A DNA stretch of 64,000 nt. It comes from an uncultured Ruminococcus sp. GTDB taxonomy: Bacteria; Bacillota; Clostridia; Lachnospirales; Lachnospiraceae. Where the stretch lies: NCBI GenBank assembly GCA_904377845.1, contig CAJFGR010000010.1, forward strand, positions 50,833-114,832, written 5' to 3'. Position 1 is the stretch's first letter. Each line of letters starts with the position of its first letter. A model generated the notes under the pieces. It was not told the origin of the DNA and made no database searches. It worked only from the letters and a program-made list of their open reading frames with translations. Positions 2,665 through 25,310 of the stretch are shown piece by piece. Position numbers and translations under genes: made by a program.

Positions 2665-3663
2665 ATGAATACATTTTATATGGAGCTAAAGAATGCTTTG
2701 GAATGTTCAGAAGGCGATATCTGGGCGGAGACTGTTCTGACAGGAGATCGCGCCGGAGAAAAGCAGCTGCTTGTAAATCCTGAGAAAGACAGGACGGGAA
2801 GCAATGAGAGAGTTTTCAGGGAGCGGATCAGGCGCACGCCTAAACTGATCATCTGCGGGGCGGGGCACGTGTCTATGCCCATCATACGTATGGGAAAGAT
2901 GCTGGGCTTTATTGTCACTGTCATAGAAGACCGTCCGAAGTTCTCGGACAATGCGAGGGCAGCAGGGGCGGATCAGGTCTTCTGCCTGCCATTTCAGGAA
3001 GGCCTGGCGGATATCCCGGGAGACTCCGACTCATGGTTTGTGATTGTGACGAGAGGACACAGGTACGATACCGAGTGCCTTGAGTCTATATTGCAGAAGC
3101 GCTATGCTTACGTGGGGATGATGGGCAGCAGGCGCCGGACGGCGATCGTAAAAGACCAGCTTGAGGAAAAGGGGATAAGCCGTGAAGTATTGGACTCTGT
3201 CCACACACCGATCGGATTGAAGATCGGGGCGGAAACGCCGGAGGAGATCGCCGTGTCAGTCATGGCTGAGATCATACAGGTAAAGAACGCCCGGAGTGAA
3301 GAGGGCGGCGGAAAAGCAGGCGGCTATTCCGATGAAATGCTCTCCTGTATTCTCGGCACGGAAAGCGACAGGGAAAATATCGGGGTTCAGAAGAAGGTTC
3401 TGGCGACGATCATTTCCCGCAAAGGCTCTGCACCCCGCAGCGTGGGCACGAAGATGCTTATTCTTGAAGACGGAACAACCGTGGATACGATCGGCGGCGG
3501 ATGCGTGGAGAGTGAGATCATACAGAAAGCTCTCCTCATGATGCGTACGGATATGCCGGATTTTCAGATCTGCACAGTGGATATGACGGCTGATCAGGCA
3601 GAAGATGAGGGAATGGTATGCGGCGGAGTTGTGGAAGTCATGCTGGAGAGGGTAACAGTTTAG
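2665..3663 (+). CDS. XdhC/CoxI family molybdenum hydroxylase maturation factor (Rossmann domain first)
   Basis: N-terminal PKLIICGAGHVSMPIIRMGKMLGFIVTVIEDRPKF; C-terminal KVLATIISRKGSAPRSVGTKMLILEDG..GGGCVESEI. Confidence 0.85.
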   Translation: MNTFYMELKNALECSEGDIWAETVLTGDRAGEKQLLVNPEKDRTGSNERVFRERIRRTPKLIICGAGHVSMPIIRMGKMLGFIVTVIEDRPKFSDNARAAGADQVFCLPFQEGLADIPGDSDSWFVIVTRGHRYDTECLESILQKRYAYVGMMGSRRRTAIVKDQLEEKGISREVLDSVHTPIGLKIGAETPEEIAVSVMAEIIQVKNARSEEGGGKAGGYSDEMLSCILGTESDRENIGVQKKVLATIISRKGSAPRSVGTKMLILEDGTTVDTIGGGCVESEIIQKALLMMRTDMPDFQICTVDMTADQAEDEGMVCGGVVEVMLERVTV

Positions 3664-3704
3664 CCTGTGCTATTCAGAAAACCAGATAAATTTTCATCAA
3701 TTGA

Positions 3705-3733
3705 TTGACACATATTTCGACCGGTGTTACCAT
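3705..3733 (+). promoter_or_regulatory. sigma70-type promoter upstream of the purine riboswitch
   Basis: TTGACA (3705-3710), 17-bp spacer, TACCAT (3728-3733). Confidence 0.6.
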
Positions 3734-3753
3734 ATTTACATAGAAAAAACATC

Positions 3754-3825
3754 GCGTACTTATATAGGTTCATAATCGGGTGAACGTCTCTACCAGCCGC
3801 CGGAAACGGCTGACTATAAGTATGC
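3754..3825 (+). promoter_or_regulatory. purine riboswitch-like aptamer (guanine/xanthine type, C at the specificity position)
   Basis: P1 gcguacuuaua/uauaaguaugc; P2 GUUCA/UGAAC; J2/3 GUCUCUACC (xpt: GUUUCUACC); L3 CCGGAAA (xpt: CCGUAAA); J3/1 UGACUAUA. It lies between a promoter and guanine deaminase. Confidence 0.8.
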
Positions 3826-3871
3826 CGGAGAGATGGGCACATCATCCGGTATATGAGAGAGGAGGCAAGAC

Positions 3872-5158
3872 TTGATGAATGAATCTATTTTTATTTTAAA
3901 AGGAAATATTATCTACAGTAAAAGCCAGACAGAGTTTGCTATTTGCGAACATGGATATCTTGTCTGTAAAGACGGCAGAGTGGACGGGATTTATCAGACA
4001 CTGCCGTTCAGGCTGGGAGGCAATCCGATCCGGGATTACGGCGATTGTCTTATCATCCCGGGACTTGTGGATCTTCATATCCATGCGCCGCAGTATTCCT
4101 ACCGGGGACTTGGGATGGATATGGAACTTCTGGAGTGGCTTGAGGTAAATACGTTCCCGGAGGAGGCTAAATTCGAAGAAACTGATTATGCGGAGAAGTC
4201 CTACTGGATCTTTACGGAGAATCTTAAGAACAGTGCTACGACGAGAGCCTGTATCTTTGCCACGGTGCACCGTCCGGCAACACTTCTTCTTATGGATTTG
4301 CTGGAGAAGAGCGGACTTGACACCTATGTGGGCAAAGTAAATATGGACCGCAACTGTCCGGATTATATCTGTGAGGAGACGCAGGAGTCGGCAGATGAGA
4401 CGCTGGAGTGGATCAAGGATGTAAACCATCGAAAATACAAGAATACAAAGCCAATTCTTACACCGCGGTTCACGCCGAGCTGTACGGATGAACTGATGGA
4501 AGAACTGAAGAAACTGCAGATGCGCTATGCTCTGCCTGTACAGTCACATTTGTCGGAAAATCCGGGTGAGATTGAGTGGGTAAAAGAACTCTGTCCGTGG
4601 TCGGAATTCTATGGAGATGTGTATGACCGGTTCGGACTGTTCGGAGCTGACTGCCCGACCATTATGGCGCACTGCGTATACAGCGGCGATGAAGAGATCG
4701 CACGGATGAAAGAGAACGGTGTGTTTGTCGCTCATTGCCCGGAGTCCAATATGAATGTGTCATCCGGAATCGCTCCGGTCAGGAAATTCCTTGAAGAAGG
4801 TCTGCACGTGGGAATCGGAAGTGATGTGGCAGGCGGCTCCACGGAAAATCTGTTCCGCGCCATGGCTCATGCCGTACAGTCGTCAAAACTGCGGTGGAGA
4901 TTACAGGATAACAGTCTGGAAGCGCTGACCGCTGAGGAAGTGTTCTATATGGCTACAAAAGGCGGCGGAGAGTTTTTCGGAAAAGTGGGAAGTTTTGAGC
5001 CGGGATATGAGTTTGACGCGGTAGTGCTGGATGACAGCCGTCTGAAGCATCCGCAGCCGCTTGATATCAGGAGCCGGCTGGAACGTATGATATATCTGGC
5101 GGACGAACGGGAGATCAGGGCCAAATACGTAAAAGGGAAAGAAATCAGTCTGCCGTAA
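3872..5158 (+). CDS. guaD: guanine deaminase / amidohydrolase
   Basis: PGLVDLHIHAPQYSYRGLGMDMELLEWL, HLSENPGEIEWV, GSDVAGGSTENLFRAM. Confidence 0.9.
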   Translation: MMNESIFILKGNIIYSKSQTEFAICEHGYLVCKDGRVDGIYQTLPFRLGGNPIRDYGDCLIIPGLVDLHIHAPQYSYRGLGMDMELLEWLEVNTFPEEAKFEETDYAEKSYWIFTENLKNSATTRACIFATVHRPATLLLMDLLEKSGLDTYVGKVNMDRNCPDYICEETQESADETLEWIKDVNHRKYKNTKPILTPRFTPSCTDELMEELKKLQMRYALPVQSHLSENPGEIEWVKELCPWSEFYGDVYDRFGLFGADCPTIMAHCVYSGDEEIARMKENGVFVAHCPESNMNVSSGIAPVRKFLEEGLHVGIGSDVAGGSTENLFRAMAHAVQSSKLRWRLQDNSLEALTAEEVFYMATKGGGEFFGKVGSFEPGYEFDAVVLDDSRLKHPQPLDIRSRLERMIYLADEREIRAKYVKGKEISLP

Positions 5159-5178
5159 GTGTAACGGAGGTGAAAAAT

Positions 5179-7512
5179 ATGGAGGAGAAAGGCTATGTAA
5201 CTGGTAAAAATCATACGAGCGAGAGGGAACATATAGTCGGCAGGAGTGTGAAGCGCGTAGATGCATTTGAGAAAGTGACCGGACGGGCAAAGTATACGGA
5301 TGATCTGTGCGATAAAAATGCCTATGTGGCAAAGGTACTGCACTCGACGATCGCACACGGATATGTGAAGTGCATTGACACATCCGAAGCGGAAAAGATT
5401 CCGGGAGTGGTGAAGATCGTTACCTGTTTCGATGTCCCGAAATATTATTATCCCACGGCAGGACATCCATGGTCCACGGAGGAGGCGCATCAGGACGTCG
5501 CAGACCGGCTGCTGCTGGTGGAGCACGTTCGGTTCTACGGGGATGACGTGGCAGCCGTGGTCGCGGAAAACGAGGTGGCGGCCGCGCAGGCTGTTAGGGC
5601 GATTAAAGTAGAATATGAAGAACTGCCTTTCGTGCTCGACGTACACAAGGCTATGGAGGACGGAGCACCGCAGCTCCATGAAAAGTACCCTCACAATATT
5701 CTCAAGCACACATCAATACGCAACGGCGACTATGAAGCGGCTGTCAAAGAACCGGGGCTGATAAAGGTGGAGGGATGGTATCAGACGCCTACTGTCCAGC
5801 ACTGCCATATTGAAAATCCGGTCTGTTATGCATATATGGAACAGGGGCGGATCGTGGTTGTGACCTCCACACAGCTTCCCCATATCTGCCGGAGAGTTGT
5901 CGGACAGGCGCTGGGCATCCCGTGGGGAAAGGTAAGAGTGATCAAGCCTTATATCGGCGGCGGGTTCGGCAACAAGCAGGATATTCTGTATGAACCTCTC
6001 TGCGCATATCTCTGTACACAGGTGGGCGGCAGGACGGTGAAGATCGATACATCCAGAGAAGAGACGTTTGTGTCGACACGTGTGCGCCATGCCATTCATT
6101 TCCATATTATTTCTTATGTGCGTCCGGACGGAACTTTTGCAGCGCGTAAGTTCGAGAGCTGGTCAGATCAGGGGGCATATGCATCCCACGGGCACAGTAT
6201 TGCGGCGAAAGGAATGGGCTGCTTCCCGCAGCTGTATCCATGCCCCAATATCGAAGCAGATACATATACAGTATTTACAAATAAATCGGTCTCCGGCGCT
6301 ATGAGAGGATACGGGATTCCACAGGCGATGTTCGCTATGGAGAGCCACACAGAAGATGTGGCAAGGGCGATCAGCATGGACCCCTATGAGTTCCGTATGA
6401 AAAATGTGATGCCGAAAGGCTTTAAGGACGGATTCTCGAAAAATGTAAATTATTATGATTCTTTCCGGGAATGTATGGAAAAAGGACGCAAAGAGTTCGA
6501 CTATGACAGACGGAAAGAAAAATATGCTCATCAGACCGGCGATATACGGCGCGGCGTGGGAATGGCGGTTTTCTGGTACAATACCGGTGTATGGCCGATC
6601 TCCCTTGAGACGTCCGCCTGCCGTATGGTGCTCAATCAGGACGGCAGCATTCAGGTGCAGGTAGGTGAGACGGAGATCGGACAGGGAGCGGACACTGCAT
6701 TTGCCCAGATGGCGGCAGAGACACTCGGTATTCCTTTTGAGATGGTCCACGTAGTCTCATCGCAGGACACAGATGTGACGCCGTTCGGAACCGGAGCGTA
6801 TGCGTCCAGACAGACCTATATGGCAGGATTTTCCATTCGTCAGACCGGAGAACTGCTGAAAGAAAAGATCATTGAGACGGCGCATGAATTAACACGACAA
6901 ATGAAAGAAAATCTGGATATTGTAAACGGGAATATTGTCAGAACGACGGACGGAGAGATTCTTATGTCACTGGGTGAACTGGCAACAGAGAAGCTGTACA
7001 GTCTGACGAACAACGGGCATCTCACGGCAGAGAGCAGTTACCAGATCAAGAATAATGCATATTCATTCGGATGTACCTTTGCGGAAGTAGAGGTAGATAT
7101 ACCCGGGTGCAGGGCGCAGGTGACAGATATTCTGAATGTTCACGACTGCGGACGCCTGATCAATCCGGCGCTTGCCGAAGCACAGGTGCACGGCGGTATG
7201 AGTATGGCGATCGGATATGCCCTGTCGGAAAAGATGCTCTATGATGAGAGAACCGGAAGACCGCTCAACAATAATCTTCTTGATTATAAGCTTTCCACAT
7301 TTATGGATCATCCGGATCTTCACGCTTCATTTGTTGAGAACTATGAGCCCACCAGCGCATACGGGACGAAAGCGCTGGGAGAGCCGCCGACCTGTTCACC
7401 GGCTCCGGCGATCCGCAATGCCATCCTGCAGGCGACCGGCGTTGCGCTTAATGAGATACCGATGAGACCCCATCTGCTGTTTGAGAAGTTTACAGAGGCG
7501 GGGCTGCTCTGA
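5179..7512 (+). CDS. xdhA: xanthine dehydrogenase molybdopterin-binding subunit (XdhA/YgeS type)
   Basis: VGRSVKRVDAFEKVTGRAKYTDD, GGGFGNKQD, GAMRGYGIPQAMFAMES, EIGQGADT motifs. ATG at 5179 preceded by ggaggtg. Confidence 0.9.
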   Translation: MEEKGYVTGKNHTSEREHIVGRSVKRVDAFEKVTGRAKYTDDLCDKNAYVAKVLHSTIAHGYVKCIDTSEAEKIPGVVKIVTCFDVPKYYYPTAGHPWSTEEAHQDVADRLLLVEHVRFYGDDVAAVVAENEVAAAQAVRAIKVEYEELPFVLDVHKAMEDGAPQLHEKYPHNILKHTSIRNGDYEAAVKEPGLIKVEGWYQTPTVQHCHIENPVCYAYMEQGRIVVVTSTQLPHICRRVVGQALGIPWGKVRVIKPYIGGGFGNKQDILYEPLCAYLCTQVGGRTVKIDTSREETFVSTRVRHAIHFHIISYVRPDGTFAARKFESWSDQGAYASHGHSIAAKGMGCFPQLYPCPNIEADTYTVFTNKSVSGAMRGYGIPQAMFAMESHTEDVARAISMDPYEFRMKNVMPKGFKDGFSKNVNYYDSFRECMEKGRKEFDYDRRKEKYAHQTGDIRRGVGMAVFWYNTGVWPISLETSACRMVLNQDGSIQVQVGETEIGQGADTAFAQMAAETLGIPFEMVHVVSSQDTDVTPFGTGAYASRQTYMAGFSIRQTGELLKEKIIETAHELTRQMKENLDIVNGNIVRTTDGEILMSLGELATEKLYSLTNNGHLTAESSYQIKNNAYSFGCTFAEVEVDIPGCRAQVTDILNVHDCGRLINPALAEAQVHGGMSMAIGYALSEKMLYDERTGRPLNNNLLDYKLSTFMDHPDLHASFVENYEPTSAYGTKALGEPPTCSPAPAIRNAILQATGVALNEIPMRPHLLFEKFTEAGLL

Positions 7513-7534: not shown

Positions 7535-9016
7535 ATGTATGATATGAAGGCATTGCATGAGGCAAAGAGTGTGGACGATGCGGTCAGACTGCTTCAGGAG
7601 TATCCGCAGGCGCAGGTCATTGCAGGCGGAAGCGATGTGCTCGTCCAGATGAGAGAAGGAAAGCGCGCAGGTGCAGAGCTGGTGAGTATATACGGGCTGG
7701 ATGAGCTGCGCGGTGTGACTATAGAAGAGGATGGAACCATACGGATCGGATCTCTGACCAGTTTCTCACACATTACGAAAGACCCGATCATCCAGAAATA
7801 TATCAACGTTCTCGGCGAAGCCGTAGATACGGTAGGCGGACCCCAGATACGAAATATCGGAACCATCGGAGGGAATACCTGTAACGGTGTGACATCAGCA
7901 GACTCGGCGTCCACCCTGTTTGCGTGGGATGCAGTGATCGAGCTGACAGGTCCGGACGGGATCAGAAGGATTCCTATCAAAGCCTTTTATATCAAGGCGG
8001 GAAAAGTAGACTTAAGACCCGGCGAGATACAGACTGCTATCCTGATCCCGAGAGAAGCATATGAAGGATACGAAGGCCATTATATTAAATACGCAATGAG
8101 AAATGCTATGGATATTGCGACTCTGGGATGTTCTGTAAATGTAAAACTTTCTGATGACAAGAAAACATTTACAGATATCCGCATTGCATACGGTGTGGCC
8201 GGACCTGTTCCCATGCGTGCCGTCCATGCAGAGGCAGCAGGAAGAGGGCTTAAGGTGACAGAGGAGAACATCGAGAAGATCGGAGATACAGTACTCGAGG
8301 ATGTAACGCCCCGCGACAGTTGGAGAGCAAGCAAGGCATTCCGGGAGCATATCTCTAAACTTTTGTGCAAGAGAGCGCTGAGAGAAGCGGTCAGAAGGGC
8401 AGGCGGAATGACGGTGGAACAAGCCCCGGCAGTTTCGAACAGCAGGACGGTCGAGACCTTGGAGAAGAAAGAACAGACGGATGTGTCATCAGGAGCGTCC
8501 CGCAATACGATCATGACGGATTCTGAGAGCGGAAAGCAGTATAAACTCGTCCGCTGCCGCATCAACGGTGTGGAGCGTGAGACCATGGTGGATGTCAGAG
8601 CGTCCCTCACGGATATGCTGCGGAATGATTATTCCCTGACCAGCGTCAAGAAAGGCTGCGAGGTGGGAGAGTGCGGCGCCTGCAACGTGATGATCGATGG
8701 AGAGTGTTACAATTCCTGTATCTATCTGGCGGTGTGGGCAGACGGTAAAGAAATCCGTACTGTAGAAGGACTAATGGGACCGAACGGCGAGCTCTCAGAC
8801 ATTCAGCAGGCATTTATCGATGAGGCGGCAGTGCAGTGCGGTTTCTGTACGCCGGGCGTGATCATGAGTGCTGTAGAGATTCTTGAGAGCGGAAAAGAAT
8901 ACACAAGAGATGAGCTGAGAAAGCTGCTCTCAGGACATCTGTGCAGATGCACAGGGTATGAAAATATCCTGAATGCCGTGGAGAAGACGATGAAGAAGCG
9001 GCTTGGGAAACTGTAA
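7535..9016 (+). CDS. fused xanthine dehydrogenase FAD-binding (XdhB-like) + 2Fe-2S (XdhC/YgeU-like) subunit
   Basis: N-terminal AGGSDVLVQMREG..GGPQIRNIGTIGGNTCNGVTSAD (FAD domain); C-terminal CEVGECGACNVMIDG..CGFCTPGVIMSA..GHLCRCTGYENI (2x 2Fe-2S). Confidence 0.9.
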   Translation: MYDMKALHEAKSVDDAVRLLQEYPQAQVIAGGSDVLVQMREGKRAGAELVSIYGLDELRGVTIEEDGTIRIGSLTSFSHITKDPIIQKYINVLGEAVDTVGGPQIRNIGTIGGNTCNGVTSADSASTLFAWDAVIELTGPDGIRRIPIKAFYIKAGKVDLRPGEIQTAILIPREAYEGYEGHYIKYAMRNAMDIATLGCSVNVKLSDDKKTFTDIRIAYGVAGPVPMRAVHAEAAGRGLKVTEENIEKIGDTVLEDVTPRDSWRASKAFREHISKLLCKRALREAVRRAGGMTVEQAPAVSNSRTVETLEKKEQTDVSSGASRNTIMTDSESGKQYKLVRCRINGVERETMVDVRASLTDMLRNDYSLTSVKKGCEVGECGACNVMIDGECYNSCIYLAVWADGKEIRTVEGLMGPNGELSDIQQAFIDEAAVQCGFCTPGVIMSAVEILESGKEYTRDELRKLLSGHLCRCTGYENILNAVEKTMKKRLGKL

Positions 9017-9100: not shown

Positions 9101-10045
9101 TTAAAGATGGATTCTTGTGCCGGTCTTGCCGAGTATTCCGTCTTTTGCTTTCTCAAGCAGCGTGATTAGCGCCTGTCTTCCCGGTTTGGATTCTGCGAAA
9201 TCTACGGCTGCCTGAACTTTCGGAAGCATGGAACCCGGTGCGAAATGCCCTTCGTCTATGTACTGCTTCGCCTCGGCAACTGTGATGTCGTCCAGCCATT
9301 TTTCATCCGGCTTTCCGTAATTGATCGCAACTTTTTCAACGGCAGTCAGAATGATAAGGAAATCAGCGTCCAGCTCTTTTGCCATCAGGCAGCTCGCGAA
9401 GTCCTTGTCAATGACAGCGCTGGCGCCTTTTAAGTGATTGCCCTGACGTGTGACGGGGATACCGCCTCCGCCGCAGGCGATGACTACGTCGCCGGAGTCC
9501 ACCATATTGCGGATCGTTCCGATCTCAATGATCTCCTGCGGTTTCGGGGATGCAACCACACGGCGGTAGCCGCGGCCTGCATCTTCTTTCATGATGTAGT
9601 CATATTTCTCGGTCATGATATCAGCCTGTTCCTTTGTCATAAAGCGGCCGATGGGTTTGGACGGGTGGTCAAATGCCGGGTCATCGGGATCGACACGCAC
9701 CTGTGTGATCATGGTAGCCACCGGAATATCCGTGATCCCTCTGTTTAAGAGCTCTTCGCGGAGTGCATTCTGCAGGTCATATCCGATATATGCCTGGCTC
9801 ATGGCAACACAGACAGACAACGGTGTGTTCGGCTGATGCGGATCCTCGTGTGTGAGGGCGATCATAGCGTTGTTGACCATGCCCACCTGAGGTCCGTTTC
9901 CGTGAGCAACCACGACCTCGCATCCCTCCTGTATCAGATCGACGATAGCGCGGGAAGTGATCTTAACGGCCTTCATCTGCTCCGGCAGAGTATTGCCGAG
10001 GGCATTCCCGCCCAGGGCAATAACGATACGTTTTTTCTTTTCCAT
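9101..10045 (-). CDS. arcC: carbamate kinase
   Basis: RIVIALGGNALGNTLPEQM, VVVAHGNGPQVG, VIACGGGGIPV. Confidence 0.95.
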   Translation of the reverse strand: MEKKKRIVIALGGNALGNTLPEQMKAVKITSRAIVDLIQEGCEVVVAHGNGPQVGMVNNAMIALTHEDPHQPNTPLSVCVAMSQAYIGYDLQNALREELLNRGITDIPVATMITQVRVDPDDPAFDHPSKPIGRFMTKEQADIMTEKYDYIMKEDAGRGYRRVVASPKPQEIIEIGTIRNMVDSGDVVIACGGGGIPVTRQGNHLKGASAVIDKDFASCLMAKELDADFLIILTAVEKVAINYGKPDEKWLDDITVAEAKQYIDEGHFAPGSMLPKVQAAVDFAESKPGRQALITLLEKAKDGILGKTGTRIHL

Positions 10046-10062
10046 AAACTGCCTCCTTGGGA

Positions 10063-10446
10063 TCAGCCCTCTTTTACAGCGGCGATGGCCTCTACCTCGC
10101 AGAGCACTCCCTTCGGAAGAGCTTTGACAGCGACGCAGGAGCGTGCCGGTTTGCCGGTGAAGTATTTCGCATAGATTTCATTGAATGCTGCAAAGTCAGC
10201 CATATCTGCGAGGAAGCAGGTTGTCTTTACAACGTCTGTAAATGCAGCTCCCTGACTTTCCAGAAGAGCGCCTACATTTTTCATAACCTGTTCCGCCTGC
10301 TCTTCAATAGTAGTACCGACTACTTCACCTGTCTCCGGTGAGAGCGGGATCTGGCCTGAGAAAAATGCGATTCCGTTTAGGACGATTCCCTGTGAGTACG
10401 GTCCGATTGCTGCAGGTGCGTTTTTTGTGTCAACATATTTTAACAT
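10063..10446 (-). CDS. ridA: RidA family enamine/imine deaminase
   Basis: APAAIGPYSQGIVLNGIAFFSGQIPLSPETGE..ARSCVAVKALPKGVLCEVEAIA. Confidence 0.95.
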   Translation of the reverse strand: MLKYVDTKNAPAAIGPYSQGIVLNGIAFFSGQIPLSPETGEVVGTTIEEQAEQVMKNVGALLESQGAAFTDVVKTTCFLADMADFAAFNEIYAKYFTGKPARSCVAVKALPKGVLCEVEAIAAVKEG

Positions 10447-10530
10447 GATGTAAATACCTCCTGATGATTCTTTTTTAGATTAGTAACTGTTCAGTCCGTT
10501 CAGCCTGCGCCATTCGTAAAGCTGCAATTT

Positions 10531-11724
10531 CTATTTGAAAACTCTCGGTGTTGCTTTTTCTTCCAGTTTCTTGAGGATGTCAGCCGGATCTGCGAATTTT
10601 GCAAGGAAGATCATAGCTGCGATGATGTACGGTTTGTAGCTTGCCTCTTTGTAGAGCGGATCTCTGTAGCGGTCGAATACGCTTGCGTCAACTTCGCCTT
10701 CCTCACAGCTTACGCCTGTGATGTCAGCCGGCAGACAGTGCATATAGAGAGCTTTGCCGTCTTTTGTAGTCTTCATCAGTTCCTCTGTACAAGCCCAGTC
10801 TTTGTGCTGTGCATTCTGTGCGAGGAGCTCTTTCTCCAGCTCTTTGATGCCCTCGAAGTCGCCGTTCCCGTAGAGCTCTGTGCGTTTCTCCATAGCTGCG
10901 AACGGAGCCCAGCTCTTCGGATATACGATATCGGCGTCTTTGAATGCCTCTGCCATATTGTTTGTCTTTGTAAATGTACCGCCGGATTTCTTTGCGTTTT
11001 CGGCAGCGACAGCTTCAACCTCCGGGAATACCTCGTATCCTTCCGGATGTGCCAGCACAACGTCCATTCCGAAACGTGTCATTAGTCCGATGATTCCCTG
11101 GGGAACGGAGAGCGGTTTGCCGTAGGACGGAGAGTAAGCCCATGACATGGCGATCTTCTTGCCTTTCAGGTTCTCGACTCCGCCGAACTCATGGATGATG
11201 TGGAGCATATCAGCCATGGCCTGTGTCGGGTGGTCGATGTCGCACTGCAGGTTGACAAGCGTCGGTTTCTGCTCAAGGATGCCGTCTTTGTTTCCCTGTG
11301 TCACGGCGTCAACAACTTCGTGCATATAAGCGTTTCCTTTGCCGATGTACATATCGTCGCGGATACCGATAACGTCAGCCATGAAAGAGATCATGTTTGC
11401 TGTCTCGCGGACGGTCTCGCCGTGTGCAACCTGGGATTTCCCTTCGTCCAGATCCTGAACCTCAAGACCTAACAGGTTACATGCGGATGCAAATGAGAAA
11501 CGTGTACGCGTGGAGTTGTCGCGGAACAGTGAGATTCCGAGGCCGCTCTCGAAAACTTTTGTAGAGATATTGTTTTCTCTCATGTAGCGGAGAGCATCGG
11601 CTACTGTAAATACAGCTTCCAGCTCATCGTCTGTCTTCTCCCATGTGAGGAAGAAGTCTCCGTTGTACATATCCTTAAAGTTCAGGGCGTTCAGTTTGTC
11701 GATATAATCCTGTAAAGTTTTCAT
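10531..11724 (-). CDS. ygeW: knotted carbamoyltransferase YgeW
   Basis: FRDNSTRTRFSFASACNLLGLEVQDLDEGKSQVAHGETVRETANMISFMADVIGIRDD; LYMHCLPADI. Confidence 0.95.
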   Translation of the reverse strand: MKTLQDYIDKLNALNFKDMYNGDFFLTWEKTDDELEAVFTVADALRYMRENNISTKVFESGLGISLFRDNSTRTRFSFASACNLLGLEVQDLDEGKSQVAHGETVRETANMISFMADVIGIRDDMYIGKGNAYMHEVVDAVTQGNKDGILEQKPTLVNLQCDIDHPTQAMADMLHIIHEFGGVENLKGKKIAMSWAYSPSYGKPLSVPQGIIGLMTRFGMDVVLAHPEGYEVFPEVEAVAAENAKKSGGTFTKTNNMAEAFKDADIVYPKSWAPFAAMEKRTELYGNGDFEGIKELEKELLAQNAQHKDWACTEELMKTTKDGKALYMHCLPADITGVSCEEGEVDASVFDRYRDPLYKEASYKPYIIAAMIFLAKFADPADILKKLEEKATPRVFK

Positions 11725-11795
11725 TCTTTATTTGTCCTCCTTGATATAAATGAAATTAAAATTACTTCCTGAAAATTATAACAGTTTAACCCATG

Positions 11796-13106
11796 TTATT
11801 CGCAGTAGCAGTTCGGCAGTGCAGCATATACAGCAGCGCAAGTTACAAGATCCTGTTTCCATGTCTTCTCATTCGGAGCGTGTGCCTGAGCCTCAGCGCC
11901 CGGTCCGAATCCGATGCACGGAATTCCGTTTCTTCCCATAATGGACACGCCGTTTGTGGAGAAGGTCCATTTGTCTGTAAGCGGACGGCTCTGACGCATT
12001 TCCAGTGTCTCGGGAGCGCCGATTCTCTTGTCTCCATAGAGAGAAGTGTAGGCTTTTTCAAGAGCTTTTGTTACCTTGTGGTCTTTCGGGATCGCCCATG
12101 TCGGGAAGTAGCACTCGATCTCGTATACGCATCCTGTGTAGGACGGACGGTCATAGTTGTACATGGATACGACTACATCATCGCCGTATTTCTGTACGCT
12201 CGGCAGAGCACGGATCTCATCCAGGCAGCTCTCCCATGTCTCGCCGAATGTCATGCGGCGGTCAAGTGATACTGCGCAGGAATCAGCTACCGCACAGCGG
12301 CTCGGGGATGTGTAGAAGATCTGGGATACGGTAACTGTACCGCGTCCGAGGAAGCGAGCTTCCTCCCAGTCCGGATTGTATTTCGGATTTAACATTTTCA
12401 CAAGACCTTTGATCTCTGTCTCGTCTGCGTCATCGTTCTCGTTGAGAGCGCGCACATCCTGAAGGATGTCGGCCATCTTGTAGATCGCATTGTCGCCGCG
12501 TTCCGGAGCGGAACCGTGGCAGGAAACGCCTTTGACGTCGATGCGGATTTCCATACGTCCGCGCTGTCCGCGGTAGATACCGCCGTCTGTCGGCTCTGTG
12601 GATACGACAAATTCCGGACGGATCTTGTCCTCATTGATGATGTACTGCCAGCACAGGCCGTCGCAGTCTTCTTCCTGAACTGTTCCTACGACCATGATCT
12701 TGCATCCTTCCGGGATCAGATCCATGTCTTTCATGATCCTTGCACCGTAAACTGCGGATACAAGACCTCCGCACTGGTCGGATACCCCGCGCCCTCCGAT
12801 CTCTGTGTCGTTCTCGTATCCCTCATACGGATCAAAGTCCCAGTTGTCGATATTTCCGATACCTACTGTGTCGATATGTGCATCGTATGCGATGATCTTA
12901 TCGCCTGTTCCCATGTAGCCGATGACATTTCCCTGAGGATCGATAACGACCTCGTCGAAGTCCAGTTTCTTCATCTCAGCAGAGATCGTGTCAATATGTG
13001 CTTTCTCATCGCAGCTCTCGCCCGGATTCTTCACGATAGCGCGAAGAAATGCGGTCATGTCTTTCTGATAACCCTGTGCAGCTTCTTTGATTTTGTTGAA
13101 GTCCAT
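11796..13106 (-). CDS. ygeY: YgeY family selenium metabolism-linked M20 hydrolase
   Basis: [49 protein letters not shown]. Start placed at ATG 13106 (MDFNKIKE). Confidence 0.93.
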
Positions 13107-13199
13107 AGTTGTAATCTCCTTTCCTTGTTTGCGCCGTGGTTTACACGACATGGTGGTACACCCCTGCGGTGTTTTGAAAATGTTATGAGTGTGTTTCAT

Positions 13200-13239
13200 C
13201 AGGCGCCGGACCGCGGAGGGCGCGGGTCCGGACTGCCTG
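13200..13239 (-). other. GC-rich hairpin in the ygeX-ygeY intergenic region
   Basis: CAGGCgCCGGACC...GGTCCGGacTGCCTG stem. Confidence 0.55.
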
Positions 13240-13287
13240 ACCGGAATAATTAATTGATTAGTTTCGTATTTATATGGAACAGACTGT

Positions 13288-14493
13288 CTATCTGTCGTTC
13301 CCGCCCCAGACGATGGATTCGTATCTTTCGGGATCTGTGTCACCTTCGGTGGAGAAGAGGAGTACTTTCGAATTCTCGTCCAGTCCGAGATGCTCTCTCA
13401 GCGGCCGGTACTCGTCCATTGTCATGATGCAGGCAAGTGTTCCGAAGGGCGCGGCGCCGGACTCGCCGGATGTCACCGGCTGATCGCCTTTCACCGGAGC
13501 GGCCAGCATACGCATACCCCTTGCAGCCACCCAGTCAGGTGATGCTACAAACGTATCTACATGATTTTTCAGAATATCCCATGAAATAGTATTCGGTTCA
13601 CCGCAGGCAAGTCCTGCCATGATCGTTACCATATCTCCGTCTACGATGCGGATATCTCCGTCTCCTGCGCAGGCGCCTTTGTACAGGCAGGCAGCAGCTT
13701 CGGCTTCTACTACGATCACTTTCGGAGGATTCTCGGGATAGCGGTTTGCAAAATATCCCTGAACGGCTCCTGCAAGAGATCCGACACCGGCCTGAATGAA
13801 TACGTGGGTCGGACGCTCACAGTCATAGCCATGGAGCTGCTCGTCCGCTTCCATTGCCATCGTTCCGTAACCCTGCATGATCCATGAAGGAATTTCCTCA
13901 TATCCGTCCCAGGCGGTATCCTGAACCATGACGCCGTTTTCTGTTTTTTCCGCCATGGCATTTGCCATACGGACACATTCATCATAATTGTATTCCTCGA
14001 TGGTCGCCTGTGCGCCTTCTGCAAGGATATTGTTCAGTCTGGTCTGTGTACTTCCCTTCGGCATGAGGACAACGGCTTTCTGGCCCAGTTTATTGGCAGC
14101 CCATGCAACGCCGCGTCCGTGGTTGCCGTCTGTGGCTGTAAAGAATGTAGCCTGTCCGAACTCCTTTTTCAGCTCCTCGGAAGTGAGCACGTTGTAGGGA
14201 AGCTCGGAGACGTCTTTGCCGGTCTGCTTCGCTATGTAGCGCGCCATGGCGAATGAACCGCCGAGCACTTTGAAAGCATTGAGCCCGAAACGATAAGACT
14301 CATCTTTGACATACACTTCTCCCAGCCCGAGGCGCGCTGCCATATGATCCAGTTTCACCAGCGGAGTGACGCTGTACTGCGGAAAACTCTCATGGAACGT
14401 GCGCGCTTTTCTGACCTCATCCAGCCCCATTACTTTCAGGTTGGAATCCGCTGTCTTCGGCATCTTGTTCACTGCCCATTTGATTGTGTCCAT
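13288..14493 (-). CDS. ygeX: diaminopropionate ammonia-lyase (PLP-dependent)
   Basis: [42 protein letters not shown]. Confidence 0.95.
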
Positions 14494-14543
14494 TGTGGAA
14501 CCTCCTTATAAATATATGAAATGTTATTGATTTACAATATTGA

Positions 14544-14676
14544 GAATATGCCAGCTCGAATCCGCCCCTTCGGGGCTGCTTCTCGCTGATGGCGTCCGCC
14601 ATATGCCGATATCGTCATTATCTGCTGCTTGCAAGCAAGCTTGCACAGCATATACTGCCGATTTCGGCGCATATTC
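14544..14676. repeat. palindrome-rich intergenic element
   Basis: Terminal GAATATGCc / ggCGCATATTC inverted ends; internal hairpins CCCCttcgGGG, atggcGtccGCCAT, gcTGCttgcaagcaagcttGCAcagc. Confidence 0.5.
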
Positions 14677-15322
14677 ATCCTTTGTCCATATAGCTGTATA
14701 GCGTAAACTTTGATATCCCCAGCAGGGATGAGACTTTATCGCCGGATTTTGTGATGAGAAATGCTCCGGCGTTATTCAAATACTGCACTACGGCGACTTT
14801 GTCGTCCTTGTTCATCATCGCGACGGGCTTGCCTACTCTGGCGATTGCCTGTTCGATGAGCTGATCGAGCAGTTCAGTCACATTGTGGGTGATCCTCTGG
14901 GGAGAACCTGAGGTATCATTTCCGTGGCTGTCCTCCGGTTCGGTCTGAACCAGTCCCCGGATCGAGCTCTCTGCTGCGAGAAGGGTAGTGATGTCGTAAT
15001 TCATGGAAAAGATATACACGATCTTCCCTTCTTCATTACGGATATAGAGGGTACTGGATTTCAAGATCCTGCCGTCATCTGTTCTTGTCAGATATGCAAG
15101 TTTGTCCTTGACTTTTCCGGGATCGGATCTCAGTGTCTCAAGTACAATGCCTGACGGGCCGTCGCCGGTATGGCGGTTGGAAACATGGCCGTTCTCAATA
15201 TAGACGATGGATTTGTCCAGGTCTTTTTTTGTCAGATCGTGGATGACGACTTCGCAGGAATTCCCGAACTGGGCTGCAAGTCCGTGTGCAAGCTGCTTAA
15301 GAAAATGAAGTTTCTGCTCCAT
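14675..15322 (-). CDS. YheO/DauR-like PAS + HTH transcriptional regulator
   Basis: MEQKLHFLKQLAHGLAAQFGNSCEVVIHDL..SIVYIENGHVSNRHTGD; C-terminal KFTLYSYMDKG HTH. Start placed at ATG 15322. Confidence 0.85.
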   Translation of the reverse strand: MEQKLHFLKQLAHGLAAQFGNSCEVVIHDLTKKDLDKSIVYIENGHVSNRHTGDGPSGIVLETLRSDPGKVKDKLAYLTRTDDGRILKSSTLYIRNEEGKIVYIFSMNYDITTLLAAESSIRGLVQTEPEDSHGNDTSGSPQRITHNVTELLDQLIEQAIARVGKPVAMMNKDDKVAVVQYLNNAGAFLITKSGDKVSSLLGISKFTLYSYMDKG

Positions 15323-15371
15323 TGCTTCACCTGCCTTTTGGTAAGCTTGTCTGTCGTGTGTCTCTAAACCC

Positions 15372-15399
15372 ATCATAGCATAAAAAAACACAGAGTCAA
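15372..15399 (-). promoter_or_regulatory. promoter of the PAS/HTH regulator
   Basis: Minus strand TTGACT-N16-TATGAT with extended TGC just before the -10. Confidence 0.7.
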
Positions 15400-15407
15400 T
15401 ACTTTTT

Positions 15408-15422
15408 CTAAAAAATTTTTAG
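15408..15422. promoter_or_regulatory. operator palindrome O1
   Basis: CTAAAAAATTTTTAG; 8 bp from the -35 of the regulator promoter. Confidence 0.75.
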
Positions 15423-15427
15423 GCAAT

Positions 15428-15442
15428 CTAAAAAATATTTAG
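15428..15442. promoter_or_regulatory. operator palindrome O2
   Basis: CTAAAAAATATTTAG; 20 bp from O1. Confidence 0.75.
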
Positions 15443-15470
15443 GAATGCTGCTCAAGCGACAAAAATGATG

Positions 15471-15499
15471 TTGACGGACGTGTAAAAAAAGGTTATATT
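15471..15499 (+). promoter_or_regulatory. strong sigma70-like promoter for a short leader transcript
   Basis: TTGACG-N17-TATATT. Confidence 0.55.
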
Positions 15500-15513
15500 A
15501 ACTCACGAAGCAA

Positions 15514-15543
15514 GGCGCTTGATTTACGGATCAGGCGCCTTTT
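15514..15543 (+). terminator. intrinsic terminator between the two operator pairs
   Basis: GGCGCttGATttacggATCaGGCGCCTTTT. Confidence 0.7.
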
Positions 15544-15597
15544 CGCATATATAAATATTTTAATCTGCGCAGGATTTTAAACACTGTTTTTGAATAC

Positions 15598-15612
15598 CTA
15601 AAAATTTTTTAG
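15598..15612. promoter_or_regulatory. operator palindrome O3
   Basis: CTAAAAATTTTTTAG. Confidence 0.75.
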
Positions 15613-15617
15613 ATGCT

Positions 15618-15632
15618 CTAAAAATTATTTAG
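15618..15632. promoter_or_regulatory. operator palindrome O4
   Basis: CTAAAAATTATTTAG; 20 bp from O3 and 8 bp from the ssnA -35. Confidence 0.75.
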
Positions 15633-15640
15633 AATTCATA

Positions 15641-15669
15641 TTGCATTTATACAATATTAATGGTATTCT
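15641..15669 (+). promoter_or_regulatory. ssnA operon promoter
   Basis: TTGCAT-N17-TATTCT with extended -10 TGG. Confidence 0.6.
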
Positions 15670-15766
15670 ATAATCAGTGACAGGGCTTAGTGTGCGATTT
15701 GCACAGTAATCTGCAAAAGCGCATTGAGAACAGTATGTGGAAAATAAATAAAAAGGAGTAATTAAT

Positions 15767-17098
15767 ATGCTGGTTTTAGGTAATGGAAAAGTTATCACAA
15801 GAGATGCTGCATATCCGCTGATCGAGAATGGCGCAGTCGCGATCGACGGCACTACAATCTGTAAAGTGGGCTCCTCGGAGGAGGTAAGAAACGCATATCC
15901 TGATGCAGAGTACATCGATGCCAAAGGCGGCCTGATTATGCCCGGCTTTATCAATGTACACGAGCATATTTACAGTGCGTTTGCAAGAGGGCTTTCCATA
16001 AAGGGCTACGATCCGAAAGGATTTCTTGACATCCTTGACGGACAGTGGTGGACGATCGACCGCAATCTTACACTGCATGATACATATTTAAGTGCTATGG
16101 CTACTTATATTGACTGCATCAGAAACGGTGTGACAACGATCTTTGACCACCACGCAAGTTTCGGCTCGATCAGGGGCTCTCTTTTTGAGATTGAGAAAGC
16201 GGCTAAAGAGACCGGAGTGCGGTCCTGTCTCTGCTATGAGATCTCAGACAGAGACGGGATGGACAAGGCAAGAGAGTCTGTTATGGAGAATGCAGAGTTT
16301 ATCCGCCACGCGCTTCAGGATGATTCCGGGATGATCGCGGGAATGATGGGGATGCACGCGCAGTTTACGATCTCTGATGAAACGATGGAATTGGCGGCTG
16401 CCAATAAGCCGGATGAAGTGGGATATCACATTCATGTGGCCGAGGGGATCGAAGACCTGCATCACTGCCTGAAGCATTACGGGAAACGGATCGTTGACCG
16501 TCTGATGGACCACGGCATCCTCGGAGAAAAGACGCTTCTGGGACACTGCATTTACATTAATTCGCATGAGATGGACTTAATTAAGGAAACGGATACTATG
16601 GTGGTCCACAATCCGGAGTCCAATATGGGCAATGCGTGCGGATGCCCGCCGACGATGGAGCTGGTGCACCGGGGAATCCTCACCGGTCTCGGCACGGACG
16701 GATATACGCATGATATGATGGAATCATGGAAAGTGGCGAACATTCTGCACAAACATCATCTCTGCGATCCGAATGCGGCATGGGGCGAAGTGCCGCAGAT
16801 GCTCTTCGAGAACAATGCGAAGATTGCCGGAAGGTACTTCAAGCAGGAGCTGGGCGTCCTGAAAGAAGGCGCGGCAGGAGATGTGATCATCGTTGACTAT
16901 GATCCGCTTACCCCGATGAATGAAAATAATATAAACAGCCATCTTTTATTCGGAGTAACCGGACATGACGTGATTACGACAGTGGCAAACGGCGAAGTCC
17001 TGATGAAAGACAGAAGGCTTACGAAGATCGATACGGCCAAAGTGATGGCCGACTGCAGACAGGCGGCGAAAGAGCTTGCCGGGCGGATCAACGGTTAA
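15767..17098 (+). CDS. ssnA: putative aminohydrolase SsnA
   Basis: GLIMPGFINVHEHIYSAFARGLS..GLGTDGYTHDMMESWKVANILHKH. Confidence 0.95.
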   Translation: MLVLGNGKVITRDAAYPLIENGAVAIDGTTICKVGSSEEVRNAYPDAEYIDAKGGLIMPGFINVHEHIYSAFARGLSIKGYDPKGFLDILDGQWWTIDRNLTLHDTYLSAMATYIDCIRNGVTTIFDHHASFGSIRGSLFEIEKAAKETGVRSCLCYEISDRDGMDKARESVMENAEFIRHALQDDSGMIAGMMGMHAQFTISDETMELAAANKPDEVGYHIHVAEGIEDLHHCLKHYGKRIVDRLMDHGILGEKTLLGHCIYINSHEMDLIKETDTMVVHNPESNMGNACGCPPTMELVHRGILTGLGTDGYTHDMMESWKVANILHKHHLCDPNAAWGEVPQMLFENNAKIAGRYFKQELGVLKEGAAGDVIIVDYDPLTPMNENNINSHLLFGVTGHDVITTVANGEVLMKDRRLTKIDTAKVMADCRQAAKELAGRING

Positions 17099-17112
17099 TG
17101 AGGTGAATAGAA

Positions 17113-18543
17113 ATGAATGATACAAAGCAGAAAAAGGACAACTCAGAATTATTTAAATGGGATGGCAATCCGTCGTTCGGGCAGGTGCTTCCTCTGGCGG
17201 CACAGCACGTGCTGGCGGCGGTAGTAGGCTGTGTAACGCCGGCTATCCTCGTAGCAAATGCTGCAAATAATGCCGGCGGAAATGTGGATATGGGACTTCT
17301 GATCCAGGTATCTCTTGTGTTTGCTGCGCTGTCTACATTGTTACAGCTATATGCTAAGAAGATCAAACTGGGAAGCGGACTCCCGGTTATTATCGGCGTC
17401 AGCTTCGCATATGTTCCGACGATGACAGCCATTGCCGCACAAGCGAAAGACGTCAATACGATTTTCGGAGCCATGATCATCGGCGGTATCGTCGCGATAC
17501 TCGTAGGACTTTTCATCCGGCAGATCCGCCGGGTGTTTCCGCCGCTCGTGATCGGGACTGTAATCCTGGCGATCGGCTTGTCACTTTACAGCACAGCGGT
17601 CAACTATATGGCAGGAAATTCATCCAACACATACGAAGTGATCGTGGAGCAGCAGGGCAAAACAGAGGCGCTTGTGTTTGGATCCTGGCAGAACTGGCTG
17701 GTGGCGTTTATTACACTGGCGATCGTTGTTCTCCTGAACCATTATGGAAAAGGGCTGTTTAAGCTTGCTTCTATCCTGATCGGTCTTCTCTGCGGATATG
17801 CAGTGGCATTGTGTTTCGGAATGGTTGATTTCTCGGCACTTTCATCCGCAGGATGGTTCCAGGTTCCGATGCCGCTCGCTTTTGGGATTAGGTTTGATAT
17901 ATCGGCAATCCTGCCGCTTGCGATTTTGTTCCTGGTCAATTCGATCCAGGCGATGGGAGATTTCTCCGCTACAACGACAGGCGGTATGGACAGACTTCCG
18001 ACAGACGATGAGCTCAACGGCGGTATTATCGGATACGGCGTCAGCAATATGGTAGGCGCTCTGTTCGGATGCCCTCCGACAGCTACATACAGCCAGAACG
18101 TAGGTATCGTCGGTTCCACGAGAGTAGTGGCAAGAAAGGTATTTTCTGTCGCAGCCATCATCCTGCTCATCGCAGGACTGATCCCGAAATTTTCCGCACT
18201 GCTTAGGACAATTCCGCAGTGTGTGCTGGGCGGTGCGGTTGCATCTGTATTCGCATCTATCGCCATGACAGGAATCAAGCTGCTGGTGACGGAGAAACTG
18301 ACTTACAGGAATACGACTGTTGCAGGACTTTCCATAGCAATTGGTATGGGCGTGTCCTTAAGCGACGGCTGCTTAAACCAGATGACAGCAAGCATCCACA
18401 ACGCTCTTAATATGAGCATGAGCCTGGAGAGCTTCCAGTCCATCATCAACAATACATTCGCATCATCGCCGGTCGTACTGGCAACCATATTTGCAGTGAT
18501 TCTGAACCTGATTCTGCCGAAAGACAAGCCGGATGCACAGTGA
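17113..18543 (+). CDS. uracil-xanthine permease family (NCS2) transporter
   Basis: LPLAAQHVLAAVVGCVTPAILVA; QAMGDFSATTTGGMDR; NVGIVGSTRVVARKV. Confidence 0.93.
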   Translation: MNDTKQKKDNSELFKWDGNPSFGQVLPLAAQHVLAAVVGCVTPAILVANAANNAGGNVDMGLLIQVSLVFAALSTLLQLYAKKIKLGSGLPVIIGVSFAYVPTMTAIAAQAKDVNTIFGAMIIGGIVAILVGLFIRQIRRVFPPLVIGTVILAIGLSLYSTAVNYMAGNSSNTYEVIVEQQGKTEALVFGSWQNWLVAFITLAIVVLLNHYGKGLFKLASILIGLLCGYAVALCFGMVDFSALSSAGWFQVPMPLAFGIRFDISAILPLAILFLVNSIQAMGDFSATTTGGMDRLPTDDELNGGIIGYGVSNMVGALFGCPPTATYSQNVGIVGSTRVVARKVFSVAAIILLIAGLIPKFSALLRTIPQCVLGGAVASVFASIAMTGIKLLVTEKLTYRNTTVAGLSIAIGMGVSLSDGCLNQMTASIHNALNMSMSLESFQSIINNTFASSPVVLATIFAVILNLILPKDKPDAQ

Positions 18544-18579
18544 GAAGCGTGCATACCGCAATAACAGGAGGGAATAGCT

Positions 18580-21573: not shown

Positions 21574-21628
21574 TAGCCGGCGCTGGCTGGACTGTGATCT
21601 CCAGAAGAAATGGTAAGACATGATAATG

Positions 21629-21660
21629 GCCCGGCGGGAATGCTGTATTTCCTGCCGGGC
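21629..21660. other. long GC hairpin between ygfK and hydantoinase (attenuator or stability element)
   Basis: GCCCGGCGGGAA..TTCCTGCCGGGC; no clear U-tract. Confidence 0.6.
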
Positions 21661-21744
21661 TAATGGACATGAAACAATCCGTAGGCATCATAGTTGGGGA
21701 AATTTGACCCCAACATCATTTTATTACAGAAAGAGGGAGTCGGC

Positions 21745-23112
21745 ATGAAACTTTTATTTAAAGGCGGAACGATCGTAAGCGGTGACGGTATGAAGAAACT
21801 TGATCTACTGGTAAAAGGCGAGAAAATCCTTGCGGCGGGCGAGAATCTGGAATTCCGCGACGCCCAGATCGTGGACGTCCGCGGAAAGCTCCTTTTCCCC
21901 GGTTTTATCGATGCGCATACCCATATGGCACTGGAAGTGAGCAATACGATCACGGCGGATAAGTTCGAGACCGGAACAAAAGCGGAGCTTGCCGGCGGGA
22001 CCACGTGTATTGTGGACTATGCCACACAGTACAAGGGAGAGAGTCTGCGCGAGGCGCTCAACAACTGGCATAAAAAGGCAGACGGGCAGTCTTCCTGCGA
22101 TTATGCATTTCATCTGGCGCTGACAGACTGGAATGAGGAGATCAGCCGTGAGCTGGAGGAAATCGTTCAGAAAGAGACTTGTTCGTTTAAGCTGTACATG
22201 ACCTATGACACAATGGTGGATGACGAGACGATGTATGAAATTCTCTCCCGGCTGAAAGAGCTGGGCGGAATCGCCGGCGTACACTGTGAGAATAACGGTA
22301 TCATTCAGGCAAGGCTCAAAGAACTGGAGAAGATAAAAGGCGGAAGGACAGACGTATCAGACTATCCGTGGACACGCCCGAAAGAGGCGGAGGCGGAGGC
22401 TGTCGGCCGTCTGCTCAAGATAGCGAAATGTGTGGATACCCCGATCATTGTCGTACATCTGAGTACTGCAGCCGGATACCGTGAGATTCTTAAAGCGAGG
22501 GAGGAAGGTCAGACAGTTTACGTGGAGACGTGTCCCCAGTACCTTGTAATGGATGAAGGCAAGTATTCACTTCCGGCTGAGGAAGCGAGACATTACATGA
22601 TTGCCCCGCCGCTTCGGAAAAAGAAGAACCAGGAAGTCCTCTGGCAGGCGCTCAAAGAAGGACGTATCCAGACAATCGCCACAGATCACTGCAGTTTTAC
22701 GAAAGAGCAGAAGATGGCGGGGGCACAAGATTTTTCGAAGACACCGTGCGGTATGCCGGGAGCGGAGGAACGCCCGGCCCTGATATGGCAGTTTGGTGTA
22801 AATGAAAATCGGATTACGGCAGAGCAGATGTGCATCTATCTGGCGGAGAATCCGGCAAAACTCTATAAACTGTATCCGTGGAAAGGTGCCCTGATTCCAG
22901 GAAGCGATGCGGATATTGTTGTGTGGAATCCGGATATCGAGTGGACAATGACAGCCGAGAGCCAGCAGTCAGCCTGCGATTACTGCCCGATGGAGGGAAC
23001 GAAGATCCGGGGCAGGGCGGAACAGGTATATTTAAGAGGAAAACTGGCGGCGGAGAACGGAAAGATTCTCGAGGAAAAGGCAGGCGTGTATGTTCGCCAC
23101 GGTGTTGAGTAG
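21745..23112 (+). CDS. hydA: dihydropyrimidinase/hydantoinase family cyclic amidohydrolase
   Basis: LLFPGFIDAHTHMALEVSNTITADKFETGTKAELAGGTTCIVDYATQ; FKLYMTYDTMVDDETMYEIL. Confidence 0.92.
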   Translation: MKLLFKGGTIVSGDGMKKLDLLVKGEKILAAGENLEFRDAQIVDVRGKLLFPGFIDAHTHMALEVSNTITADKFETGTKAELAGGTTCIVDYATQYKGESLREALNNWHKKADGQSSCDYAFHLALTDWNEEISRELEEIVQKETCSFKLYMTYDTMVDDETMYEILSRLKELGGIAGVHCENNGIIQARLKELEKIKGGRTDVSDYPWTRPKEAEAEAVGRLLKIAKCVDTPIIVVHLSTAAGYREILKAREEGQTVYVETCPQYLVMDEGKYSLPAEEARHYMIAPPLRKKKNQEVLWQALKEGRIQTIATDHCSFTKEQKMAGAQDFSKTPCGMPGAEERPALIWQFGVNENRITAEQMCIYLAENPAKLYKLYPWKGALIPGSDADIVVWNPDIEWTMTAESQQSACDYCPMEGTKIRGRAEQVYLRGKLAAENGKILEEKAGVYVRHGVE

Positions 23113-23113
23113 A

Positions 23114-23872: not shown

Positions 23873-23881
23873 GTCAAAAAA

Positions 23882-23915
23882 TCGTAACAGGTCGGCCATA
23901 AAGCTGAATTGTTAC
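23882..23915. repeat. small inverted repeat with possible similarity to the GTTCARCC repeat ends
   Basis: CGTAACAggtcggcc..gctgaatTGTTACG. Confidence 0.4.
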
Positions 23916-23939
23916 GGCAAATCAGAAAGGCAGATAAAA

Positions 23940-25292: not shown

Positions 25293-25310
25293 CAGACAGA
25301 TCGAGAGGAG

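Follow-up and report, generated by a model that had tools for sequence, protein, structure and literature searches.

A guanine-I type aptamer upstream of guanine deaminase in Lachnospiraceae: a predicted ON riboswitch with a platform over the start codon and first codons

In general, the known guanine-I riboswitches repress uptake and salvage (PMC9295807), and yxjA is such an OFF switch, working by strand exchange at P1 (PMC9756952). The adenine riboswitch of Bacillus subtilis pbuE is an ON switch, whose platform invades P1, J3/1 and P3 of the aptamer by strand exchange (PMC7707468). Variants of the same scaffold are guanine-II and xanthine-II, which occur in Paenibacillus and others and are predicted ON switches, with xanthine-II on purine degradation genes; a further variant, in Paenibacillaceae, selectively senses 8-oxoguanine (PMC9295807). 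Xanthine and urate are sensed for purine oxidation genes by the xanthine-I (NMT1) riboswitch (PMC7373994).

Here we describe a purine aptamer upstream of guanine deaminase in a stretch of 64,000 nucleotides from a Mediterraneibacter (Lachnospiraceae) genome, below called the window. We propose, with a probability of about 0.77, that it is a guanine-responsive ON riboswitch of the catabolic operon guaD-xdhA-xdhBC, with a platform formed by the start codon and coding region of guaD. The aptamer resembles guanine-I (RF00167; B. subtilis xpt-pbuX and yxjA) in its three-way junction, in U22, U47, U51 and C74, and in the GG:CC loop contact. Compared with the OFF switches xpt-pbuX and yxjA, however, it has a P2 of 6 bp and an L2 of 6 nt, precedes a catabolic gene and is predicted to switch ON. 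With pbuE it shares a predicted ON platform that invades the aptamer. In contrast to pbuE, which senses adenine and builds its terminator from P1, J3/1 and P3, it has C74, its switching strand is J1/2-P2-L2, and the partner of that strand is the Shine-Dalgarno, the AUG and the first codons. The fold of xanthine-I is unrelated. All features are listed in Table 1, where aptamer bases are numbered after B. subtilis xpt.

Table 1. Features of the leader and the operon, in window positions; helices of the OFF fold are predicted.
Feature	Position	Strand	Details
Promoter-like site	3705..3733	+	TTGACA, 17 nt, TACCAT, with TG before TACCAT; 10/12 consensus matches
Purine (guanine-I type) riboswitch aptamer	3740..3836	+	whole Rfam match RF00167
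P1, 11 bp	3754..3764 / 3815..3825	+	5' strand GCGUACUUAUA
J1/2, UAG (U22 A23 G24)	3765..3767	+	
P2-L2-P2'	3768..3785	+	18 nt in all; 6 bp, 3768-3773/3780-3785, closing pair U-G; 6-nt loop AAUCGG, 3774-3779
J2/3 core GUCUCUAC	3786..3793	+	U47, C48, U49, C50, U51, A52; ninth base, C, assigned to P3
P3-L3-P3'	3794..3812	+	6 bp, 3794-3799/3807-3812; L3 CCGGAAA, 3800-3806
J3/1, AC	3813..3814	+	C74 at 3814, base setting guanine over adenine
OFF helix, 5' arm	3764..3781	+	AUAGGUUCAU A AUCGGGU; A21, J1/2, P2 5' strand, L2, first bases of P2'
Anti-P1 hairpin	3820..3854	+	5' arm 3820-3829 overlaps P1; 3' arm 3845-3854
Shine-Dalgarno GGAGGC	3861..3866	+	in OFF fold pairs with J2/3 GUCUCU, 3786-3791
OFF helix, 3' arm	3870..3888	+	ACUUGAUGAAUGAAUCUAU; holds guaD start codon 3875-3877
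guaD, guanine deaminase	3875..5158	+	TIGR02967, E 1.8e-106, 356.5 bits
U-tract UUUUUAUUUU	3888..3897	+	codons 5-8 of guaD, adjoins OFF helix
xdhA, xanthine dehydrogenase molybdenum subunit	5170..7512	+	NF043082, 1265.9 bits (cut-off 780)
XdhB-XdhC fusion (FAD and [2Fe-2S] subunits), one reading frame	7535..9016	+	NF043083, residues 1-290; NF043084, residues 338-487

The promoter spacing indicates that the transcript probably starts near 3740. The TIGR02967 score of guaD is slightly below the equivalog cut-off (375.4), and its nearest solved chain is 2i9u. The TIGR02967 and NF profiles bear out the guanine deaminase-xdh operon that had been read from the letters, with an xdhB-xdhC fusion as its third gene. 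A large cluster of purine degradation type lies around the operon (9101-28459). It has genes like carbamate kinase, RidA, YgeW, YgeY and YgeX on the minus strand, and ssnA, a xanthine permease, ygfK-like, hydantoinase, yqeB/yqeC/mocA-like genes and a second xanthine dehydrogenase on the plus strand; ssnA and the permease are named by NCBIfam profile and the others by inspection. At 2665-3663 there is an XdhC-family maturation factor with its XdhC_C Rossmann domain (residues 61-203) before XdhC_CoxI (243-296). The expected order is XdhC_CoxI ahead of XdhC_C, and this protein is possibly permuted.

RF00167 matches the window at 3740-3836 of the plus strand over the whole model (1-102), scoring 57 bits where the gathering cut-off is 37 (window E-value 3.7e-07). 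No other Rfam match in the 64-kb window reaches gathering level, and the genome as a whole has no second RF00167 match. The original prediction had named a purine aptamer with guanine-class matches in P1, J2/3, L3 and the C of J3/1, and with a shortened or variant P2/L2. All of this holds up in the comparison with the Rfam purine model, a covariance model: the four pocket bases are present and the short P2/L2 is real.

Both P2 and L2 of the window aptamer are shorter than the Rfam consensus, which could be read as the mark of a decayed or non-functional aptamer. However, its score is well over the gathering level, the GG of L2 and the CC of L3 needed for the kissing contact are retained, and an identical short architecture is kept across dozens of species, which makes decay extremely improbable; a damaged aptamer is ruled out by this conservation. 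The 18-nt P2-L2-P2' is found in 24 of the 28 guaD-linked Lachnospiraceae aptamers, and GG and CC are present in all 66 parsed aptamers of the family. By locus type, the short form occurs at 26/31 guaD or xdhA loci versus 1/10 xpt, BMP or NCS2 loci (Fisher p 4.9e-5, uncorrected for relatedness). Judged by these alignments, the short P2/L2 is a genuine lineage-wide type that retains the GG:CC contact. In one assembly, which also holds L044, an aptamer before guaD (L084) has core changes, with UAUCCAG at J1/2, A for G46 and an altered L3; this copy may be decaying.

Next, we consider the ligand. The window pocket consists of the guanine-I contacts, and there are no junction insertions. In the relatives the parser pattern demands the pocket bases, so the unbiased evidence for the pocket comes from the window and the Rfam alignment. 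Position 74 is C (3814) and not the U of the adenine class. Guanine-II and xanthine-II are defined by insertions in J2/3 and J3/1, with U51G in xanthine-II (PMC9295807). In the window J2/3 (GUCUCUAC) and J3/1 (AC) both have the usual length and U51G is absent, and by these junction lengths, as far as sequence tells, both classes are excluded.

Since the pocket is of guanine-I type, guanine is the default ligand. It is also the ligand that we predict from the identity of the pocket together with the first enzyme of the operon, while hypoxanthine or xanthine could be weakly sensed. The original warning that no ligand preference can be assumed may therefore be relaxed to a default of guanine. A different purine (hypoxanthine, xanthine, urate or 8-oxoguanine) would suit the catabolic operon, and C48 and G24 do depart from the common bases; against this stand the four guanine-I contacts, and base 48 is C or U even in the near-identical leaders L037 and L038. 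As C and U alternate in this way, we rejected position 48 as a marker of specificity. The 8-oxoguanine riboswitch acts as an ON switch and precedes a deaminase gene of amidohydrolase type. In the window the gene is a different one: guaD scores as a guanine deaminase and reaches only 124.6 bits against the 8-oxoguanine deaminase model (cut-off 532). Even though xanthine-II and 8-oxoguanine riboswitches show that the scaffold has such variants (PMC9295807), we regard a ligand other than guanine as unlikely here.

The expression platform was originally called unclear, with no obvious intrinsic terminator between 3825 and 3872. The second statement is true for simple terminators, of which a terminator scan found none in 3600-4000. 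The first can be revised: on folding, the competing structure runs past 3872 into the coding region, and a platform overlapping the start codon and first codons of guaD can now be assigned in the model. In the minimum free energy (MFE) structure of the leader and first codons, 3764-3773 pairs with 3879-3888 and 3775-3781 with 3870-3876. Not only the window but also those guaD leaders that combine an aptamer with a short spacer have this OFF helix as their MFE structure. The duplex has -17.6 kcal/mol in the window, while the average over 442 other gene starts, taken from the window and from related loci, is -7.4 (sd 2.5), only two of them being as strong. The anti-P1 hairpin has a predicted probability of 1.00 in the full leader, and a similar hairpin overlapping P1 is seen in most of 39 relatives. 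We rejected it as a leader terminator, as there is no U-tract behind it. P3 is common to both predicted folds.

When the transcript is lengthened stepwise and folded to equilibrium at every step, a complete aptamer is seen at 3826 and the anti-P1 hairpin by 3864; P2 then yields to the start helix at 3884-3888. The bound (aptamer) fold is weaker than the OFF fold, by 10.7 kcal/mol in the window and by 4-21 in relatives. In many leaders this gap is plausibly small enough to be closed by the ligand together with the loop contact, above all during transcription. With the aptamer imposed, the median openness rises from 0.20 to 0.55 for the Shine-Dalgarno and from 0.34 to 0.58 for the AUG; L041 and L047 are contrary cases, in which the Shine-Dalgarno is less open in the bound fold.

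From these folds a mechanism can be proposed. With guanine bound, P1, P2, P3 and the L2-L3 contact would hold, the Shine-Dalgarno and AUG would stay open and RNA polymerase would read on. In the absence of guanine, the downstream hairpin would capture the 3' strand of P1 and, once codons 1-5 are transcribed, the start region would invade P2/L2 to form a long helix with J1/2-P2-L2. The Shine-Dalgarno would then pair with the ligand-binding J2/3, and the U-tract in codons 5-8 would come directly after. The gene would be turned OFF by occlusion of the Shine-Dalgarno and start codon, by termination at this U-tract within the coding region, or by the two together.

How common are such platforms? 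Among 250 Lachnospiraceae genomes, 55 contain a total of 69 purine aptamers. Downstream of these lie 28 guaD, 13 FAD-dependent oxidoreductases, seven Azg/PbuG-like permeases, five BMP-like lipoproteins, four MATE-like proteins, three xdhA, three xpt and a few others (names other than guaD and xdhA are from inspection of the protein sequences). The closest guaD genes are in Mediterraneibacter and other Lachnospiraceae, and 31 of 58 Mediterraneibacter genomes have an aptamer match over the cut-off. At the 28 guaD loci a folding heuristic, individually unreliable for very long hairpins (e.g. L027, L125), finds 16 ON-type terminators with a 5' arm of aptamer sequence (13 from J2/3-P3, three from J3/1-P1), two loci with downstream candidates only and ten with none; all three xdhA loci have an ON-type terminator from aptamer strands. 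Terminator arms such as ACUACCGUAA...CGGUAGUUUUUUU are plainly visible in most loci, and across the family ON-type terminators that use strands of the aptamer itself are present in most guaD copies with longer leaders. The window belongs to the class with none, and it is folding that reveals its OFF helix with the first codons.

A few of these loci deserve mention by themselves. The leader L063 / L122 has both an intrinsic terminator, with J3/1 and the P1 3' strand (including C74) as 5' arm, and a complementary start region; it is perhaps intermediate between the two platforms. The 13 FAD-dependent oxidoreductases are about 420-480 aa long, mostly have ON-type terminators (L007, L009, L013, L022, L024, L028, L120, L126, L127, L131, L139, L146, L147), and form a candidate family of purine-related enzymes. 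Aptamers with ON-type terminators also precede the MATE-like transporters at L006, L138, L141 and L143, perhaps purine exporters.

In the window, the OFF fold excludes the aptamer, and guanine should therefore turn the operon ON. That a catabolic operon would be switched on by its ligand had been expected from the start, and both the exclusive fold and the ON-type terminators among guaD relatives agree with this in the folding models. An xpt-like OFF switch, with guanine repressing guaD, would match the best-known guanine-I riboswitches (PMC9295807, PMC9756952). We judge it very improbable here, as the one strong alternative fold cannot coexist with the aptamer and lies over the start, the relatives have ON-type terminators, and for guanine to repress its own breakdown makes little sense.

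As would be looked for in an ON-type platform at the start region, the calculations give a helix over Shine-Dalgarno and AUG that is mutually exclusive with the aptamer and carries compensatory changes. The pair between L2 and base -1 has a probability of at least 0.91 in all 39 distinct leaders. When 36 distinct leaders are aligned, 95.4% of the 612 cells hold a pair, dropping to 20-45% when the strands are slid by 1-3 columns, and none of 500 shuffles reached the covariation score. The L2 base and the base before the AUG are C-G in 33 leaders, A-U in L069, U-A in L095 and U-G in L059. On the coding side the changes GAA/GGA, UCU/CCU, AUU/GUU, AUG/GUG and AAU/AGU all retain standard pairs, but they count for little because the search pattern that defined the group already required most coding-side bases of the outer helix, several of these among them. 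For the same reason most of the covariation comes from base -1 and its neighbours, with few independent events. In the inner helix the pairs at -2 and -3 fail in 5-7 of the 36 leaders, and that at -4 more often.

A less biased set is given by 45 and 35 guaD relatives, called with and without an aptamer and picked by protein alone. The complementary start motif is present in 40/45 of the former versus 1/35 of the latter (L098 is miscalled as lacking an aptamer, which sits further upstream). In a tree test the independent pairs are 4:0 for the motif going with the aptamer, too few to reach 0.05. Further, the 5' strand of P2 is invariant in the short-leader group and freely variable in the long-leader relatives, as expected if this strand serves two helices. 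One guaD, L057, has a complementary start (GUGAACCUGUUUUU) and no aptamer was found upstream; possibly the riboswitch was recently lost.

The first codons of guaD show a clear bias. Codon 4 is always NCU, while elsewhere in the same genes CCU accounts for 13% of the codons for Pro, and UCU for 22% of UCN codons. Codon 5 is GUU in all 12 cases of Val (14% elsewhere in the same genes), and codon 8 is UUA or UUG in 39/39 (14% elsewhere). First codons rich in U, A/G or A/U are common in genes generally. As the bias extends beyond the helix, it favours some role for the U-tract, and termination there may contribute.

It can also be asked whether the switch is purely translational, so that the OFF helix does no more than mask the Shine-Dalgarno and AUG, and the U-tract just encodes I-F-I-L. 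This would be a sub-case of the riboswitch proposed here, differing in the output step. The AUG and the Shine-Dalgarno both lie within OFF helices, the lower stem is rich in A-U pairs and thus weak for a terminator, and the scan of 3600-4000 detected no simple terminator; yet the U-rich synonymous choice runs on past the helix through codons 5-8, CTG is frequent at codon 8 of guaD copies that lack an aptamer, and most long-leader relatives have terminators. We put translation alone at somewhat less than an even chance. Tentatively, the same can be said for a more specific form of the ON switch. Here the aptamer itself would be the antisense, with J2/3 covering the Shine-Dalgarno and L2 and P2 covering the AUG and codons 2-5, followed by a terminator U-tract in the coding sequence. 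A single fold would then combine termination and translation block, and dictate the N-terminal residues.

In the open-access literature we did not find the arrangement of a guanine riboswitch with guanine deaminase, in Lachnospiraceae or in gut purine degradation. The same is true of a platform that joins J1/2-P2-L2 over the start codon, J2/3 over the Shine-Dalgarno and a U-tract within the coding sequence, and of an ON switch for guanine catabolism built on a guanine-I aptamer in this family; an earlier description of any of these outside that literature is possible.

The textbook role of guanine-I riboswitches is to turn salvage and uptake OFF. Strand exchange in chimeras of pbuE is blocked when the L2-L3 contact is stable (PMC7707468), which suggests that a shorter loop would suit switches opened through the aptamer; the short L2 may thus be part of the switch design. 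The layout is shared by about 39 relatives. If the proposed reading is true, the window offers a clean example of an enzyme whose first residues are shaped by the structure of its RNA. Moreover, the Lachnospiraceae, a large gut family, would use the guanine-I pocket in reverse, switching on the breakdown of guanine by a pathway that leads via xanthine towards urate.
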